From an uncultured Pedosphaera sp. (lineage in GTDB: Bacteria; Verrucomicrobiota; Verrucomicrobiia; Limisphaerales; Pedosphaeraceae), in the NCBI GenBank assembly GCA_903918755.1, contig CAIXFN010000101.1:1-64000 (forward strand): a stretch of 64,000 nucleotides of DNA, given 5' to 3'. Position numbers and translations under genes: made by a program. The notes under the pieces are model-generated. The model was not told where the DNA came from and did no database searches. It saw nothing but the letters and a program-made list of their open reading frames with translations. Positions 47,119-54,415 of the stretch are shown here, piece by piece (position 1 is the first letter of the stretch; every line of letters starts with the position of its first letter).

Positions 47119-49053
47119 GTGAGTGCCGTTTCCTCATGCCCGCATTGCGGAGGCGAGGTCGTCTTGCAAGCGGTGCCGGCGGCTTTTTCCGTGTGCCCGG
47201 CCTGCGGCACCATGCTGGCGCGGGGCGATTCCGGCATTGCCGTCATGGGCGTGGCCGCCCAACTGCCGGCCGACCATTCGCCCTTGCAGATCGGAACCAA
47301 GGGGGAATTTGAAGGCGAGAGCTTTACTCTGATCGGCCGTTGGCGGGTGGGGTATCCGGAAGGCGCCTGGACGGAGTGGTGCGCCCTGTATCTCGACGGG
47401 CACTATGGCTGGGTGACCGAGACGCAGGGTTTTTTCATGGCGGGCTTTGAAACACTGCCCCCGGCCGATTTTCCACCGGTGCGTGATCTAAAATCGGGTA
47501 AAGTGGTCTGGTTGGATCAGGAATTGTACCGGTTGACCGACCGGAAGGACACGGTTTGCCTTGGGGTGGAGGGAGAAATGCCTTTCGCCGCCCCGGCCGG
47601 GCGGGAGGAACTGAGCCTTGATTTTACCGCTCCCGCGGGCAAGTTTCTCACGGTCAAGTCCAGCGGTGACCAAATTCGCCTGATCACGGGGAGAATCCTG
47701 ACGTTTGCGGAGCTGAAGTTCTCGAATTTGCGCGCCGTGCCCGGTTGGGAAGACGCCACGGCGGAGACAGCCCCAGCACCCCCTGCGGCGGTGGACTGTC
47801 CCTACTGCGGGACCGCCGTCAGCTTGCGGGCGGCGGGTTTGACGTTGTCGGTGGCCTGCCCGCGGTGCGGTTCGGGCTTCGCCAACACCGACCCCCGTCG
47901 GCGGATCTTATGGTCGACCCCGGGCGAGCGACGGGTCCAGCCCCGGATTCCTTTGGGTGCCCGGGGCACCCTCTTTGGCGTTTGCTACGAGGTGATTGGA
48001 TTTCAGCGTATCCGGGTCGGGTCCGAAGTGAGTTGGGAAGAGTATCTCCTTTTCAATCCCTGGGCGGGTTTTGTGTGGCTGATCCAATCGGACGGGCATT
48101 GGACCTTTGTGCGCCGGTTGCTGGCGCCCCCGGAGATCCAGAAAACGGGACTGGCGCCGTGGCAGCCCCGGCTCATTTTTCAGGGAGAGAGCTACCGTTT
48201 CTTTTCGACGGTCCGGGCGGTGACGGATTCCGTGCTCGGCGAGTTTTATTGGCAACTGCGGCCGGGCGATGTCACGCAGGTAACCGATTACGTTTGTCCG
48301 CCCAAGATTCTTTCGAGCGAAGAATATCCGGGACTGGGCGAGGCCACTTGGTCGCTGGGGGAATATGTGGAACCCAAGCTGATCCGCCGGACTTTTGGCG
48401 CCGGTGTGCGGCTGACGGCTCGCACCGGGGTCTACCTGAACCAGCCCAACCAGTTTGCGGTGTCCGGGTGGCAACTGGCCTGGCTAGTGCCGGTCCTCGT
48501 GGTGCTGTTCAGTCTGCTTCATTTTGCGGTGGCTCACCAGGCCGAGAACCGGAAGATCATCGAATTCAACGGACAATACCAGGCGCTCGGCACAAATGAG
48601 ACCCGGCTCACGGACACGTTTACCATGCCGGGACGCCGGGCGGTGGAGGTGCAACTGCGGGCGCCCGTGGACAACCATTGGCTGGAGTTCGAAGTGGAGG
48701 TGGTCAACGCGGATACCCACGAACTGGCGGCTTCCCTCACCCAGGAGGTCGCTTACTACGAGGGCTATGACGACGGAGCGTGGAGCGAGGGCCGTCAGAT
48801 GGTGCGCCGCCTGATTCCAGCCCTGCCGATGGGGAGGTACTACCTTGCGTTGGCAGTGTCCGCCGACCCGGGAATCAGCACGATCCCGTTTTCCGTGACG
48901 GTCATCCGCGATGTGGTTCCGCGCGCCAATTATATTATCGCTTTGCTGCTGCTGCTCGTTTATCCGGTTTATGTCTGGATCCGCGCGGCCTTCTGGGAAC
49001 AGGCGCGGTGGCGGGGGAGCGGGCCGGTCCCGCTCGGAATGGCACGAAAATGA
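47119..49053 (+). CDS. Double DUF4178 protein with zinc ribbons and membrane helices
   Basis: This 644-aa protein starts at GTG with GGGAG nearby. Two zinc-ribbon-like Cys sets (CPHC/CPAC, residues 7-29; and CPYC/CPRC, about residues 226-250) each precede a DUF4178 domain. The first has 'GRWRVGYPEGAWTEWCALYLDGHYGWVTETQGFF', the second 'GFQRIRVGSEVSWEEYLLFNPWAGFVWLIQSDGHWTFV'. Two membrane segments follow: about 455-475 and near the C-terminus. DUF4178 is known from operons with polyamine enzymes and PspA-like proteins; no biochemical function is established. Its stop overlaps the next start as ATGA. Confidence 0.88.
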   Translation: MSAVSSCPHCGGEVVLQAVPAAFSVCPACGTMLARGDSGIAVMGVAAQLPADHSPLQIGTKGEFEGESFTLIGRWRVGYPEGAWTEWCALYLDGHYGWVTETQGFFMAGFETLPPADFPPVRDLKSGKVVWLDQELYRLTDRKDTVCLGVEGEMPFAAPAGREELSLDFTAPAGKFLTVKSSGDQIRLITGRILTFAELKFSNLRAVPGWEDATAETAPAPPAAVDCPYCGTAVSLRAAGLTLSVACPRCGSGFANTDPRRRILWSTPGERRVQPRIPLGARGTLFGVCYEVIGFQRIRVGSEVSWEEYLLFNPWAGFVWLIQSDGHWTFVRRLLAPPEIQKTGLAPWQPRLIFQGESYRFFSTVRAVTDSVLGEFYWQLRPGDVTQVTDYVCPPKILSSEEYPGLGEATWSLGEYVEPKLIRRTFGAGVRLTARTGVYLNQPNQFAVSGWQLAWLVPVLVVLFSLLHFAVAHQAENRKIIEFNGQYQALGTNETRLTDTFTMPGRRAVEVQLRAPVDNHWLEFEVEVVNADTHELAASLTQEVAYYEGYDDGAWSEGRQMVRRLIPALPMGRYYLALAVSADPGISTIPFSVTVIRDVVPRANYIIALLLLLVYPVYVWIRAAFWEQARWRGSGPVPLGMARK

Positions 49054-49208
49054 AAATTCACAATCCTTTTTACCTGGCTTTTGCCTTGCTGGTCATCGGC
49101 TTGGCGGCGCTGGCGGATTGGGGCGGCTGGGATGCCACCCAAATGTCCCCTGATCCGGGGCAACTGAGTGGCGCGCGGGTCCATGTCGGCGGAACTTTTC
49201 ACAAGTAA
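49050..49208 (+). CDS. 52-aa membrane protein between DUF4178 and speE
   Basis: The frame reads MKIHNPFYLAFALLVIGLAA..., with one membrane helix (about residues 7-22), then a Trp/Gly-rich and polar C-terminal tail ending GGTFHK. It overlaps the upstream stop by 4 nt (ATGA) and stops 23 nt before the SpeE-like gene. In other polyamine/DUF4178 operons this position is often held by a DUF350 membrane protein; this protein is too short to be one and has no recognised family. Confidence 0.7.
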   Translation: MKIHNPFYLAFALLVIGLAALADWGGWDATQMSPDPGQLSGARVHVGGTFHK

Positions 49209-49231
49209 ACGCCTCCCCGCATCCCCCGGCC

Positions 49232-50743
49232 ATGACTGATCGTCGCCTGAAAATCCTGCTCCTGCTGTCTGTCTTCGCGATCGCAACCTGCGGACTGATT
49301 TACGAGCTGATCGCGGGAACCCTGGCGAGTTATTTGCTCGGAGATTCGGTTACCCAGTTTTCCACGGTCATTGGCACCTACCTTTTCGCGATGGGCATTG
49401 GTTCCTATCTTTCCGGGCATATCCGCAGGAACGAGGTGGCTGTTTTCATCCAGGTGGAGATGCTGGTGGGGATGGTGGGTGGTTGTTCGGCGGCCTTGTT
49501 GTTTCTGCTTTTCGGGCAGGTGGATTCGTTCCGGGTGTTGCTTTACGCCTTGGTGACAGTTGTCGGCACCTTGGTGGGACTCGAAATTCCGCTGCTGCTG
49601 CGGATACTCAAGGACCGGCTCGAATTCCGCGAATTGGTCGCGCAGGTCTTTACGTTTGATTACGTGGGGGCGTTGCTGGCGTCGCTGCTCTTTCCCCTCA
49701 TCCTGGTGCCGCGTTTGGGATTGGCGCGGTCGGGCTTTCTCTTCGGCGCCGTGAATGTGGGGGTGGCGCTGGCGACGCTGCACCTGCTGCGGGAACATGT
49801 GCCGCGACCGCGCGCCCTGGCCGGGGCGGGTTGGTTACTCCTCGCGGGACTGGCGGTGGGTTTCGGGGCGTCGGACCGTTTGCTGGCGTGGTCGGAAAAG
49901 TCCGCCTACGTGGATCCGGTGATTTTTGCGCGCACCACGCCCTACCAACGCATCGTGCTGACGCGCGAGGCGAACGACCTGCGGCTCTACTTGAACGGCA
50001 ACCTGCAGTTCAGTTCCCGGGATGAGTACCGTTATCATGAGGCGCTCGTTCATCCCGGGTTGGCGCGTCTGCGGGCGCCCCGCACGGCCCTGGTGCTGGG
50101 CGGCGGGGACGGGTTGGCGGTGCGCGAATTGCTCAAATATCCCAGCCTGGAGCACATTACCTTGGTGGATTTGGACCCCGCGATGACCCGATTGTTCGCG
50201 ACGCAGGAGTTGCTGCGGCGGATCAATGATTCCTCCCTGCTGTCCCCGCGCGTGACGGTGATCAACGAGGACGCGTTCACCTGGCTCAAGGGCAATACGA
50301 ACCAGTTTGATTACCTGGTGGCGGATTTTCCCGATCCGTCCAATTTCTCCATTGGAAAATTGTACACCACGGCATTTTATGCCCGGGTGCGGGCAGCGAT
50401 GCGGCCGGGGTCGGCATTCGTGGTGCAATGCACCTCTCCCTGGGTGGCGCGAAAATCATTCTGGTGCGTGGACGCGACGTTGCGGGCCAGCGGTTTCGTG
50501 ACGGAGCCTTATCACCTCTACGTGCCCTCGTTTGGGGAGTGGGGATTCATCTTGGCTTCGCTCGCTCCGTTGCCGCAGAGCTATCATTTCCCCCCGGGCC
50601 TGAAATTTCTGGATGAGGCGAGCGTGCAGGATTTATACCACTTCCCGCCAGACATGGGGCCGGTGATGGTGGAGGCGAACCATTTGAACAACCAGATGCT
50701 GGTTCGTTATTTCGAGGAGGAGTGGGCGCATTATGTGCACTGA
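49232..50743 (+). CDS. speE: Membrane-embedded polyamine aminopropyltransferase (SpeE-like)
   Basis: This 503-aa protein has an N-terminal membrane domain with about seven helices (residues 7-225) and a C-terminal catalytic domain. The latter transfers an aminopropyl group from decarboxylated AdoMet to a polyamine acceptor. It has 'SSRDEYRYHEALVHPGL', the SAM-binding motif GGGDG (290-294), 'ITLVDLDPAM' and the DxxDP pair Asp365/Asp368 in 'VADFPDPSNFSIGKLYTTAFY'. Membrane-fused members exist in many bacteria; the acceptor and product are not established. It sits with speD and an amine-oxidase-like gene. Confidence 0.9.
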   Translation: MTDRRLKILLLLSVFAIATCGLIYELIAGTLASYLLGDSVTQFSTVIGTYLFAMGIGSYLSGHIRRNEVAVFIQVEMLVGMVGGCSAALLFLLFGQVDSFRVLLYALVTVVGTLVGLEIPLLLRILKDRLEFRELVAQVFTFDYVGALLASLLFPLILVPRLGLARSGFLFGAVNVGVALATLHLLREHVPRPRALAGAGWLLLAGLAVGFGASDRLLAWSEKSAYVDPVIFARTTPYQRIVLTREANDLRLYLNGNLQFSSRDEYRYHEALVHPGLARLRAPRTALVLGGGDGLAVRELLKYPSLEHITLVDLDPAMTRLFATQELLRRINDSSLLSPRVTVINEDAFTWLKGNTNQFDYLVADFPDPSNFSIGKLYTTAFYARVRAAMRPGSAFVVQCTSPWVARKSFWCVDATLRASGFVTEPYHLYVPSFGEWGFILASLAPLPQSYHFPPGLKFLDEASVQDLYHFPPDMGPVMVEANHLNNQMLVRYFEEEWAHYVH

Positions 50744-50746
50744 GCC

Positions 50747-52390
50747 ATGAAGTGGACCCGGCGAAAATTTCTAGCGGCGGGGGGAGCGACCGCAGCGGCC
50801 ACCAGCCTGGCGGGCGCGGGTGCGTGGCGGGCCGCGCGGCCGCCCGTCCGGCGATTCAGCGGTGGAATCGTGGGGGGGAATTCCAACCTGGGTCATGCGC
50901 TACGCGACGGGAAATTTCCACCGCCAGACGGGATTCGGGACGTGGAAGTGGTGATTGTCGGCGGTGGGATAGCAGGTTTGGCAGCGGCGCGGCGTTGGCG
51001 GCGGGCGGGCGGGGAAGATTTTGTTTTGCTCGAGTTGGAAGCGCGGGCCGGCGGCAATGCCATCAGCGGACGCAATTCGGTTTCGGCCTTTCCCTGGGCC
51101 GCCCATTATGTGCCCATTTCCGGCAGTGACGCCGCGGAGGTCACCCGGCTGTTTGAAGAATTGGGCGTCATAACTGGCCGGGATCCGACGGGCACGCCGG
51201 TGTACGCCGAGGAGTTTCTTTGTGCCGATCCGATGGAGCGATTGTTCATTCATGGACGCTGGCAGGAGGGCTTTGTGCCGCAGACGGGCCTGCGGGCCGG
51301 CGATGAGCCGATCATCCAGGCGTTTTTGGCGGAAATGCAACGCCTCAAAAACTTCCGGGGGCGGGACGGGCGGCGGGCGTTTACGATTCCGGTGGATCAA
51401 AGTTCCGGGGACGAAGCGTTTCGGAAGCTCGACCGGATGACCATGGCCGACTACCTGGCCAGCCAGGGATGGCTGACTTGTGAACCACTGCGCTGGTATG
51501 TGAATTACTGTTGCCGGGATGACTACGGTGCGGGTATCAGCAGAATCTCCGCCTGGGCGGGAGTGCATTACTTCGCCGCCCGGGATGGCCGGGCGGCCAA
51601 TGCCCCGGATCACGCGGTGGTGACCTGGCCCGAGGGCAATGGCTGGCTCGCGCAGCAATTGGAGGCCGGGGTGGCTGGTAAAGTGCAATCCGAGTGCGCG
51701 GTTTGGAACGTGGAGACCGCGTCGGACGGTTTCTTGGTGGATTATTATGACGCCCGGGCGCGAAAGAGTTTTCGCTTGCGCACCCGGGGGGTCGTGTGGG
51801 CGGCCCCCGCTTTCATTGCCCAGCGGGCGATCCAGGAGTTGCGCGAAGCGGGGAACCGACCCGCCGTGGTTTATTCCCCCTGGCTGGTGGCAAATTTGAC
51901 CCTGGACGCCGTGCCGGACGGGCGTGGCATGGCTGCGGCGTGGGACAATGTCATTTACGGCAGTGAGACTTCCTTGGGATACGTGGTGGCCACCCATCAG
52001 AATGTGCGACCGGTGCCCGGGCACACGGTCATTACTTATTACCTCCCATTAGACGCGGATGAACCCGCCCTCGCCCGGACCAAGGCACTCACGCGGAGTT
52101 ACGATTCGTGGTGCGAACAGATCCTCGCGGAATTGGCGGTGGCCCATCCGGAAATCCGCGCGCAGGTGCGAAATTTGGACATCTGGTTATGGGGTCATGC
52201 CATGGGGCGACCGGTGCCTGGTTACATTTGGGGGGGCGGCCGGGAGCGGGCGCAGTTGCCGCTGGGTAACCTCGTTTTCGCCCATTCGGACCAAAGCGGC
52301 GTGGCACTCTTCGAAGAGGCTTATACCCGGGGAGTAAGGGCGGCGGATGAACTCTTGGGGAGGCTCGGCGGTCCGCCCGGGCAAGCTTGA
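50747..52390 (+). CDS. Tat-exported FAD-dependent amine-oxidase-like protein
   Basis: This 547-aa flavoprotein begins with a twin-arginine signal (MKWTRRKFLAAGGATAAATSLAG). The FAD dinucleotide motif is 'VVIVGGGIAGLAAARRWRRAG' (GGGIAG at 72-77), followed by 'LLELEARAGGNAISG'. The C-terminal part has 'GNLVFAHSDQSGVALFEEAYTRGVRAADELL', the usual end of flavin amine oxidases. Candidate substrates are polyamines made by the neighbouring SpeE/SpeD enzymes; the reaction is inferred. It starts 3 nt after speE and ends 4 nt before speD. Confidence 0.88.
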   Translation: MKWTRRKFLAAGGATAAATSLAGAGAWRAARPPVRRFSGGIVGGNSNLGHALRDGKFPPPDGIRDVEVVIVGGGIAGLAAARRWRRAGGEDFVLLELEARAGGNAISGRNSVSAFPWAAHYVPISGSDAAEVTRLFEELGVITGRDPTGTPVYAEEFLCADPMERLFIHGRWQEGFVPQTGLRAGDEPIIQAFLAEMQRLKNFRGRDGRRAFTIPVDQSSGDEAFRKLDRMTMADYLASQGWLTCEPLRWYVNYCCRDDYGAGISRISAWAGVHYFAARDGRAANAPDHAVVTWPEGNGWLAQQLEAGVAGKVQSECAVWNVETASDGFLVDYYDARARKSFRLRTRGVVWAAPAFIAQRAIQELREAGNRPAVVYSPWLVANLTLDAVPDGRGMAAAWDNVIYGSETSLGYVVATHQNVRPVPGHTVITYYLPLDADEPALARTKALTRSYDSWCEQILAELAVAHPEIRAQVRNLDIWLWGHAMGRPVPGYIWGGGRERAQLPLGNLVFAHSDQSGVALFEEAYTRGVRAADELLGRLGGPPGQA

Positions 52391-52394
52391 ATAA

Positions 52395-52751
52395 ATGAAC
52401 GCACTTTGCCGGCATACGTTGTTGGAATATCACGGTTGCGATCCGGAACAGTTAAAACGCCCGCACGAAGTCCGGGCCTGGATGCGCGCCGCCGTGCGGG
52501 CGGGCGGGGGCACGATTGTCAAAGCCGTGTTCCATGCCTTCAATCCGTACGGGGTCAGCGGGGTGTTGGTCATCACCGAATCCCATGTGACCATTCACAC
52601 CTGGCCCGAGCACGGCTATGCGGCGGTGGATATTTTTTCCTGCAACCCGAAATTGGATCACGGGTTGATCCGCCGACGGATCAAGGAAATGCTCGGCGCC
52701 AAGCGGGTGACGGCCCGCTCGTTTCGCCGCGGGGTGGCGCCCGGCCTTTAA
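52395..52751 (+). CDS. speD: S-adenosylmethionine decarboxylase proenzyme, prokaryotic type
   Basis: This 118-aa protein is the short bacterial/archaeal form. It self-cleaves before Ser63 (ITESHVTIHTW) to form a pyruvoyl group; His68 and Cys83 ('VDIFSC') are the other family catalytic residues, at the same numbering as in the Thermotoga enzyme as I remember it. 'HAFNPYGVSGVLV' is also conserved. It makes decarboxylated AdoMet, the donor used by the SpeE-like enzyme encoded two genes upstream. The stop overlaps, tail to tail, the stop of the convergent beta-helix gene by 4 bp. Confidence 0.95.
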   Translation: MNALCRHTLLEYHGCDPEQLKRPHEVRAWMRAAVRAGGGTIVKAVFHAFNPYGVSGVLVITESHVTIHTWPEHGYAAVDIFSCNPKLDHGLIRRRIKEMLGAKRVTARSFRRGVAPGL

Positions 52752-54415
52752 TCCTGCTTCGAACTCGGGGCGGGTTGCCCAATGGCGCCCAAAAGGGAAT
52801 TGCCCGCGGGGGGCAGCGCGAGGCCAAAGAAATCGCAGAAGCCGGGTTCCACGCCAAATTTGCCGCGCAAATCCAACCCGGCGGTGAGGGCGGGCGAACC
52901 AGGGAGGGGACGGAACGCCGCGAGTTGGTTCAGCGCGGGCAGCGCTTCCGGTTGCGGCTCGGCTGGCGGCGGGCTAAGCGCCGGATTCTTCGCCATTCCG
53001 ACCGGTGCCCCCTGAATGGATTCCTGCCCCGTGTTGTTCCGCCATTCCTCCAGGCTCGCGAACTCCTTGCCCTCCCAGGCGATTTGGAAAGGGGCCTGGT
53101 CGCGCCAATAGAGGTTGTTTTCGAAACGCAGGTGCTCCTTCGCCTTCTCGGCGCGCAGCGGCACCGCGCGGCCCTTGGCGATGAAGATGTTGTTGCGCAA
53201 GTGCGCCTCCACCCCGTTGCCATCCACATACACGGCCTGGTCCGTCCAGGGACCGACCTGGACGGTATTGTTGTAAATTTGCACGCCGGTCATGCCCTTG
53301 CCGTCACTGCGCACCCAAAGGCCGGCGTAGGTGCGGCTTTTGCGGGAATCATTTTCGGAAATATTGAAACGCACCACGTTGTCGCGATCCGGATGCTGGG
53401 CGTAAGGATAGGTGTAAACCATCAAACCGGGGCCGTCATTGTCATGACTGTAATTATACTGGAGCACGCAGTTTTCGCTGCCGCCATCAATGTCAAAGCC
53501 GCCGCCATCCGCGCTGCTGGTGCGGTTGCGAAAGCTCTCGCAGTGCTGGATCACCACGCGCCGGGAGGAGCACGTCCAGAGCCCCACCCCGCCGCCGGTG
53601 CGGGAACGGCACAGTCCGCCGTTGTTCCAGGCGGTGCAATGATCCATCAGTCCGCCGTCCACCTGGTAAAGCACAATGCCGCTGCCGGAATGATTTTTCA
53701 TGTAATTAGGATCGCCCGTGTTATCGAAGGCCCGGCACTGGGTTACGGTGACGTCGGCATGCACGTAGGCGGGGGAGTCATAGGGCAGGCGCCCGGCTAT
53801 TTCCATGCCGCCCCGGAGATTCTCGCGGGCCACACAATTGGTGATCAACACATGACGGAAGCCGCCGCGTTCCCCGCCCACCAGAATCCCTTGCTGACCG
53901 AAGCCGCGCACTTCCAGGTTCACGAGGCGCAGATAATCCAGCGGCACAGATTCCGGCCGCGTGTTGTCGCAACGGACTCCATACCCAACATTGGTGGTGG
54001 AGCCGGCTCCTACGATAATGAGATTCTCCAGGGCGCACCCCCCGGCATTTTCGATCAGGATGCCCGTGCCGGTACCGGCCAGGAGGGTGGCGGGTTGATC
54101 GCCGGTTGAGTTAATCACCACCGAGGCATTGGTTGCTCCGGAGCATTCGGCGGTCAGGTGGAGATTGCCCGCGAAGGATTCGCCGGATTGGAACGCCACT
54201 CGGTCCCCCGGATGGAGGTGGGCTTGATTCACCCGGCCAATGGTGCGCCAGGCGGTGGTGGGCGAGTCCCCGCCAGCGGAGTCGTTGCCGGTTTCGCGGA
54301 CGAAATAGGTGGTCGCGCCAGCGGGCGTGCTCGCGATGACGAGCAATAGAATTCCCAGGCGGGCCAGGTTCGCGGGCGCGCGGGAATGCCCCGGTTTCAG
54401 CCAGGAAGTTGTCAT
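52748..54415 (-). CDS. Secreted right-handed beta-helix protein
   Basis: This 555-aa protein has a signal peptide (1-35) and a start typical of these proteins, 'TYFVRETGNDSAGGDSPTTAWRTIGRVNQAHLHPGDRVAF'. The middle is made of short parallel strands with repeated Asn and Gly turns ('ALENLIIVGAG', 'LVNLEVRGFGQQGILV', 'VLITNCVARENLRGGMEI', 'VVIQHCESFRNR'), the pectate-lyase/polysaccharide-lyase-like beta-helix. No catalytic set is identifiable. Probably extracellular and carbohydrate-related. The C-terminus is a short Ala/Pro-rich region. Confidence 0.87.
   Translation of the reverse strand: MTTSWLKPGHSRAPANLARLGILLLVIASTPAGATTYFVRETGNDSAGGDSPTTAWRTIGRVNQAHLHPGDRVAFQSGESFAGNLHLTAECSGATNASVVINSTGDQPATLLAGTGTGILIENAGGCALENLIIVGAGSTTNVGYGVRCDNTRPESVPLDYLRLVNLEVRGFGQQGILVGGERGGFRHVLITNCVARENLRGGMEIAGRLPYDSPAYVHADVTVTQCRAFDNTGDPNYMKNHSGSGIVLYQVDGGLMDHCTAWNNGGLCRSRTGGGVGLWTCSSRRVVIQHCESFRNRTSSADGGGFDIDGGSENCVLQYNYSHDNDGPGLMVYTYPYAQHPDRDNVVRFNISENDSRKSRTYAGLWVRSDGKGMTGVQIYNNTVQVGPWTDQAVYVDGNGVEAHLRNNIFIAKGRAVPLRAEKAKEHLRFENNLYWRDQAPFQIAWEGKEFASLEEWRNNTGQESIQGAPVGMAKNPALSPPPAEPQPEALPALNQLAAFRPLPGSPALTAGLDLRGKFGVEPGFCDFFGLALPPAGNSLLGAIGQPAPSSKQD

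Follow-up and report, generated by a model that had tools for sequence, protein, structure and literature searches.

A membrane aminopropyltransferase operon of an uncultured Pedosphaera, with a small lysine-tailed protein as candidate acceptor

The DNA considered here, called the window, comprises the first 64,000 nucleotides (nt) of contig CAIXFN010000101.1 from an uncultured Pedosphaera sp. of the Verrucomicrobiota (assembly GCA_903918755.1). At positions 47119-52751 the list of open reading frames (ORFs) gives five ORFs on the plus strand with junctions of -4, +23, +3 and +4 nt, coding for a DUF4178 protein, a protein of 52 amino acids (aa) ending in lysine, a membrane enzyme of the SpeE type, a flavoprotein and an S-adenosylmethionine (AdoMet) decarboxylase, SpeD (Table 1); the order and spacing are those given in an earlier note on this DNA, and the start of the 52-aa gene overlaps the DUF4178 stop by 4 nt. 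Comparative genomics and structure models suggest that these genes form a membrane-bound protein-modification system, with the C-terminal lysine of the 52-aa protein as the candidate acceptor of an aminopropyl group.

Table 1. Features of the operon in the window.
Feature	Coordinates	Strand	Basis or remark
DUF4178 protein, 644 aa, GTG start	47119-49053	+	Pfam PF13785, two stretches
52-aa single-helix lysine-tail protein, ends GGTFHK; proposed acceptor	49050-49208	+	Counterparts between DUF4178 and SpeE in relatives
Codons CAC AAG, C-terminal His51-Lys52 of the 52-aa protein	49200-49205	+	
Membrane aminopropyltransferase (SpeE-like), 503 aa	49232-50743	+	NF002956 and structure model
FAD (flavin adenine dinucleotide) amine-oxidase-fold protein, Tat-type start, 547 aa	50747-52390	+	Profile, fold and N-terminal motif
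S-adenosylmethionine decarboxylase SpeD, 118 aa	52395-52751	+	AdoMet_dc, TIGR03330

Pfam profiles score 104.6 bits for DUF4178 (over its two stretches), 116.4 for Spermine_synth, 40.7 for NAD_binding_8 and 123.7 for AdoMet_dc. Among NCBIfam models, polyamine aminopropyltransferase NF002956 covers residues 6-501 of SpeE at 649.4 bits (cut-off 472) and adenosylmethionine decarboxylase TIGR03330 matches SpeD at 113.4 bits (cut-off 75.65). The residues that the earlier note had singled out are indeed present: SpeE carries GGGDG (290-294) and DFPDP (365-369), D365 and D368 being conserved in 42 of 42 aligned membrane enzymes, and SpeD has Ser63, His68 and Cys83, which we take to be the processing serine and the catalytic histidine and cysteine. 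The DUF4178 protein has two zinc-ribbon-like motifs besides its DUF4178 stretches, and two hydrophobic stretches about 130 aa apart can be read by eye in the C-terminal region of its translation. The 52-aa protein gave no Pfam or NCBIfam match. A role in anti-phage defence was considered on account of three PADLOC matches and rejected; the largest (mad2) falls on the Rossmann part of SpeE and scores 57.3 bits, a small fraction of what the aminopropyltransferase model scores.

In related loci two small proteins are usually encoded between DUF4178 and SpeE, namely DUF350 (about 67-79 aa, recognised by Pfam) and a separate tail protein of about 44-83 aa, in which one hydrophobic helix leads into a loose N-x-[RN]-G-[WY] motif and then, across a linker that varies, to a lysine as last residue; that of locus L179, like the 52-aa protein of the window, has no Pfam match. 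Thus, the small protein does not stand in place of DUF350, as had been proposed, and is a separate family: 114 of the 132 tail loci described below have a DUF350 match, and 101 have both DUF350 and DUF4178. No adjacent DUF350 was found in the window operon, the gap between the 52-aa gene and SpeE being only 23 nt; judging from its gene content, this operon is a DUF350-less variant that has retained the tail protein but no longer has DUF350 next to it.

The terminal lysine was assessed on neighbours picked blind to it, the non-DUF350 neighbour being chosen by position and hydropathy with the C-terminus unused, over loci L016-L095, L098-L102 and L158-L209. DUF4178 lies upstream of SpeE on one strand in 92 of them, of which 75 gave a candidate, the other 17 being passed to curation. 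Lysine is the last residue of 72 of the 75 picks (58 His-Lys, 8 Gly-Lys, 4 Val-Lys and 2 Ile-Lys) and of 136 of 1667 other ORFs of at least 200 aa; the three picks with another end (L074, L167 and L176) are mis-picks, each locus holding a further ORF that ends in lysine. Curation by hand, from several locus and genome sets, gave 132 tails. Among the other genes of these loci, lysine ends range overall from 0 to 13% (DUF350 1/114, SpeE 1/134, SpeD 0/87, FAD protein 4/96, DUF4178 4/139, a gene for a 363-aa protein 3/51, SPFH 4/32). Of 150 loci with a SpeE match, 132 gave a tail. Where DUF4178 or DUF350 is also held this is 127 of 129, and the pair in which no tail was seen (L029 and L193) lie at contig ends; where neither is present it is 5 of 21. 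It is almost certain that the lysine tail is a conserved component of the membrane SpeE system.

The carrier of the tail varies. It is a small membrane protein in 112 of the 132 loci, a C-terminal fusion to DUF4178 in 7 and a larger anchored protein adjoining DUF350 in 13, nine of the latter having a lipobox according to our own pattern; genome G644 has two membrane enzymes, one beside a small membrane tail ending GGK, the other beside a lipoprotein ending RGK. That unlike anchors share this lysine end speaks for the residue as the part that does the work. In the DUF4178 fusions (L161, L164, L166, L167, L171, L173 and L184) the C-terminal tail is rich in Gly and Ser and ends in His-Lys, and a hydrophobic helix precedes it in six of the seven.

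A different use of the tail, possible though on balance unlikely, would leave the lysine unmodified: membrane SpeE would aminopropylate a small amine or a lipid headgroup, and the tail would be a structural or sensor subunit docking by its C-terminal charge on acidic lipid or on DUF350/DUF4178. This agrees with the presence of the tail in 127 of 129 loci with DUF4178 or DUF350 but in just 5 of 21 with neither, and with the existence of the fusions. Against it, docking by charge should tolerate arginine, which ends none of the 75 blind picks, and in two Escherichia coli ligase operons, one of which has DUF350, tails of a similar kind finish in Gly-Gly.

The structure model of SpeE (40 alignment rows; mean predicted local distance difference test score, pLDDT, 90; predicted template modelling score, pTM, 0.70) shows seven long predicted helices within residues 3-212, in line with the membrane domain claimed earlier, followed by a spermidine-synthase fold; the transferase domain aligns with the Thermus aminopropyltransferase 1uir over 268 residues (Z 35.7, root-mean-square deviation, rmsd, 1.8). 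The catalytic fold and the GGG-type and DxxDP motifs are shared with soluble aminopropyltransferases (the Thermus triamine/agmatine enzymes 1uir and 3anx and thermospermine synthase 6bq2), from which the window enzyme differs by the extra N-terminal seven-helix membrane domain and by a motif of the membrane group, P[ST]FG(E/D/Q)WG. Arg267 (in DEYRYHE) is invariant in the 42 membrane enzymes of the DUF4178 group, the aligned soluble enzymes having Ile, Val or Tyr; a role as general carboxylate clamp was discarded, as Ile occupies this position in three more distant readable enzymes (L187, L188 and L194), and the residue was kept as a group feature only.

In all 42 rows Lys and Arg are more numerous in the N-terminus and loops 2, 4 and 6 than in loops 1, 3 and 5 (mean 9.5 versus 2.0), the first set being longer (47 versus 22 columns) and its Lys/Arg density about twice as high. 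Given the seven helices and this charge bias, an N-in enzyme with its transferase domain on the outer side is probable. The same chemistry on the cytoplasmic side, with transferase domain and tail facing the cytoplasm and the oxidase acting on something else outside, is quite improbable: a cytoplasmic donor would favour it, as would the dependence of the helix count on the last helix and the weak charge bias of the tail protein, but it has to contend with seven helices at that mean pLDDT, an N-in bias in every row, nine tail carriers with a lipobox and the conserved twin-arginine motif of the oxidase. E25, E118 and D143 are invariant acidic residues within the helices of the membrane domain; one may speculate that they would suit the passage of a cation such as decarboxylated AdoMet.

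The flavoprotein starts with MKWTRRKFL, Arg5 and Arg6 each being at least 90% conserved (46 rows), and is predicted to be a Tat-type exported protein, so that the Tat signal noticed earlier holds. Its model (mean pLDDT 88.5, 46 rows) resembles monoamine oxidase 8p84 (Z 28.0, rmsd 3.5, 420 residues aligned) and putrescine oxidase 2yg3 (Z 27.9), and the Foldseek list is headed by the spermidine dehydrogenase SpdH 7d9f; the fold, together with the FAD-binding Rossmann motif (NAD_binding_8), places it in the flavin amine oxidase superfamily. Identity with these three enzymes in the alignments is 15-19%, and the window oxidase differs from them in its own conserved motifs, YCCRDDYG and TWPEGNGW, and in its Tat-type start. 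Gene linkage and the fold models thus support what had been put forward, a linked set of genes for aminopropyl chemistry at the membrane, together with an exported flavoprotein of amine-oxidase fold.

The tail lysine stays when the oxidase is absent. The state of the oxidase was established genome-wide for 52 genomes with a membrane enzyme, and locus-wide elsewhere: the oxidase is present somewhere in 19 of the 52 and was not found in 33, of which 27 have the lysine tail. No tail was found in five oxidase-free genomes (G129, G189, G354, G359 and G466), and G269 was seen over a short locus only. Among the 132 tail loci, whose sampling was guided largely by the oxidase itself, 95 hold it. Tails end in His-Lys in 85 loci (84 with oxidase), in Gly-Lys in 41 (15 with oxidase) and in Val-Lys or Ile-Lys in 6 (none with oxidase), the single His-Lys end without oxidase being that of L184. 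A rule by which His-Lys would occur if and only if the oxidase does was near perfect in an early Fisher test on four hand-entered counts; it was broken by a further genome set and abandoned. On a SpeE tree of 100 rows the His-Lys and oxidase traits change four times each, with three independent pairs, and the association between them is confounded by descent.

The oxidase has 479 matched relatives among the genome_contigs candidates, of which the best 80 were kept, a set rich in Bacteroidota. A full membrane SpeE lies in the same locus in 72 of these 80, and the view of the earlier note that the oxidase makes this version distinctive is not supported. Linkage is not complete, since eight kept loci are without a full SpeE: six of their genomes hold a membrane SpeE elsewhere, and a genome search gave no match anywhere in the other two (G293 and G294). 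Neighbouring genomes did not refute linkage: in a 288-genome sample of the window's phylum SpeE was matched in 12 genomes and the oxidase in 5, all among the 12. Matches to the membrane SpeE-like enzyme were common in two further phylum samples as well, with 39 of 398 genomes in the second and 53 of 297 in the third, which was centred on the genome carrying locus L084 (titled Acidimicrobiia); a few of these matches are partial. An operon of this kind is thus neither a rarity nor a novelty. Where the record is named, which is the case for 62 tail loci, the phyla are Bacteroidota (28), Verrucomicrobiota (11), Pseudomonadota (10), Bdellovibrionota (4), Myxococcota, Nitrospirota, Chlorobiota and Acidobacteriota (2 each) and a candidate division (1); recurrence of the gene set across eight phyla and a candidate division is more than chance. 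On an annotated plasmid the order is SPFH, DUF4178, DUF4178, hypothetical protein, DUF350, aminopropyltransferase, FAD oxidoreductase and SpeD.

The mechanism proposed is the following. SpeD, whose family membership is established, presumably makes decarboxylated AdoMet, whose aminopropyl group membrane SpeE would move onto the side chain of the lysine that ends the 52-aa protein. The side chain of lysine is a 4-aminobutyl group with a reach equal to that of putrescine, which it would thus mimic; a C-terminal lysine on a flexible tail would also be the lysine most easily entering a spermidine-synthase pocket. The product would be N-epsilon-(3-aminopropyl)lysine, whose side chain resembles spermidine and would be fixed to the membrane on its outer side. 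A spermidine-dehydrogenase-like oxidase is a natural partner for such a product, and the Tat-type flavoprotein may then oxidise the tethered amine; DUF4178 and, in relatives, DUF350 could hold or gate the tail protein, as linkage and the DUF4178-tail fusions suggest. Transferase domain, oxidase and tail are all predicted to be outside the cytoplasm, the lipobox of nine tail carriers placing those tails there. With the transferase so placed, a donor from the cytoplasm would need a way across the membrane, which the seven-helix domain of SpeE itself may perhaps provide; this is the weakest step. The likely role would be envelope or membrane maintenance. The chances that membrane SpeE aminopropylates this lysine appear about even; that a widespread, undescribed protein modification exists, in which an extracytoplasmic aminopropyltransferase makes a C-terminal lysine spermidine-like and an exported flavin oxidase often oxidises it afterwards, is held a little more tentatively.

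Several observations weigh against this proposal. Synthesis of the donor is cytoplasmic, across the membrane from the predicted site of the transferase, and an exporter of decarboxylated AdoMet is hypothetical; the seven-helix count hinges on the last helix (193-212), which is short; and the tail protein has a weak charge bias, Lys/Arg averaging 1.1 ahead of the helix and 2.8 in the remainder, which is the longer portion (25 proteins). No tail was found in 18 of the 150 SpeE loci: six have the SpeE gene less than about 1.1 kb from the contig start, two more lie at contig ends (L192 and L193), and ten have no DUF4178 or DUF350 in the locus, L095 and L200 among these being one place and L022 holding SpeE fragments only. 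Most of the 132 tails were found by seeking lysine ends, the bias-free part being the blind picks and the ORFs adjoining DUF350. The tighter His-Lys rule failed, 14 loci of the third set having the oxidase with an end in GGK or SGK. A conserved C-terminal lysine can serve other uses, and an arginine decarboxylase gene leaves ordinary polyamine synthesis possible.

This gene, of the biosynthetic type (646 aa), lies on contig 90 of the source genome (L261:1243-3183), and agmatine or putrescine may accordingly be made. A classical spermidine operon is thus possible; however, the only SpeD match of the 7.19 Mb assembly is the one in the window operon, and the only other match to the SpeE domain is in an 821-aa protein with a long N-terminal part (contig 40, L015:5642-8107). 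DUF4178 is found in the window operon only, by a whole-genome search. The earlier note had imagined that a free aminopropylated amine arises at the membrane and is then oxidised beyond the cytoplasm, perhaps for protection or modification of the envelope. Its membrane pathway and exported oxidase are supported, and in place of the free amine the lysine that ends the 52-aa protein is put forward here as the more specific candidate. The folds of SpeE and oxidase and the arginine decarboxylase speak for the free amine, which is nevertheless very unlikely, as it leaves the conserved C-terminal lysine without a role. In addition, in the work of Li et al. from 2019 (Biochem J), the fusion enzymes reportedly fail to complement a spermidine synthase mutant, spermidine being absent, and an acceptor other than putrescine is said to have been proposed for them.

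Ravi et al. 2024 (PMC11237479) described gene clusters whose centre is a 7TM domain joined to a domain like spermine/spermidine synthase; the published operon type comprises the membrane-fused enzyme, an AdoMet decarboxylase, DUF4178 and DUF350. As in those clusters, the window has a membrane SpeE, a linked AdoMet decarboxylase, DUF4178 and an anchored partner protein; unlike them, it has no adjacent DUF350, PspA or band-7 gene, and its partner is a transmembrane lysine-tail protein rather than a lipoprotein. Indeed, no Pfam match to PspA/CesT-Tir or band-7 was obtained in the five operon genes and the five flanking genes. The word 'lysine' is not found in the main text of Ravi et al. 2024 (PMC11237479), which was the only paper returned by full-text searches for DUF4178 and Ctha_1186; similar searches for aminopropyl-lysine or protein aminopropylation returned no paper, which is weak evidence as most subscription journals lie outside them. 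The operon kind is therefore already known, and the proposed modification would be new if confirmed.

The nearest chemical parallel comes from E. coli, where YgiC and YjfC, according to what is said of the work of Pederick et al. in 2023, are peptide-spermidine ligases; peptide--spermidine ligase is also their RefSeq product name. Beside YjfC and YgiC are encoded YjfM (L282:7388-8026) and YgiB (L283:745-1416), whose Ser/Thr/Gly/Arg-rich tails end in GHWGG and SMGG; these C-termini may be the natural substrates of the ligases. The ygiBC and yjfIJKLMC operons are thus alike in setting a rich-tailed protein beside an enzyme able to put a polyamine on a peptide, and one of the two has a DUF350 partner; they differ from the window in the ATP-grasp ligase and the Gly-Gly ends, and no SpeE, SpeD, DUF4178 or oxidase is annotated in their gene runs. 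Gly-Gly ends at the ligases suggest that the lysine end goes with the aminopropyltransferase rather than with DUF350-type operons at large, the control being two E. coli proteins only. Deoxyhypusine of eIF5A is likewise a polyamine-derived extension of a lysine side chain, which differs in enzyme, donor, added group (aminobutyl), protein and cell location.

If the proposal is true, polyamines tethered to the bacterial envelope would arise in two independent ways, through this system and through the peptide-spermidine ligases with their Gly-Gly tails. An orphan enzyme would gain its missing acceptor, as a single-residue candidate, and protein modification would gain a new kind; furthermore, there would be a reason why polyamine enzymes are repeatedly linked to anchored small proteins and to membrane-stress genes (PspA or band-7).

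Other features were observed around these genes. DUF350 is matched on contigs 39 and 49 of the source genome, outside the operon, and on contig 39 (L284:7826-8748) a 79-aa DUF350 gene, considered as a candidate for the missing partner of the operon, is followed by a 242-aa ORF with no Pfam match; the genome retains DUF350 elsewhere, though it is absent from the operon. A multi-helix protein of about 360 aa is encoded downstream of the oxidase in 40 of the 80 kept oxidase loci (e.g. L032:4097-5194); the scanned member has no Pfam match, and the gene is absent from the window operon. A scan for sigma-70 promoters found none, which says little either way. The operon is flanked by a divergent gene on one side and a convergent gene on the other, and the latter, coding for a beta-helix protein (52748-54415, minus strand), has its stop overlapping that of SpeD by 4 nt (52748-52751).

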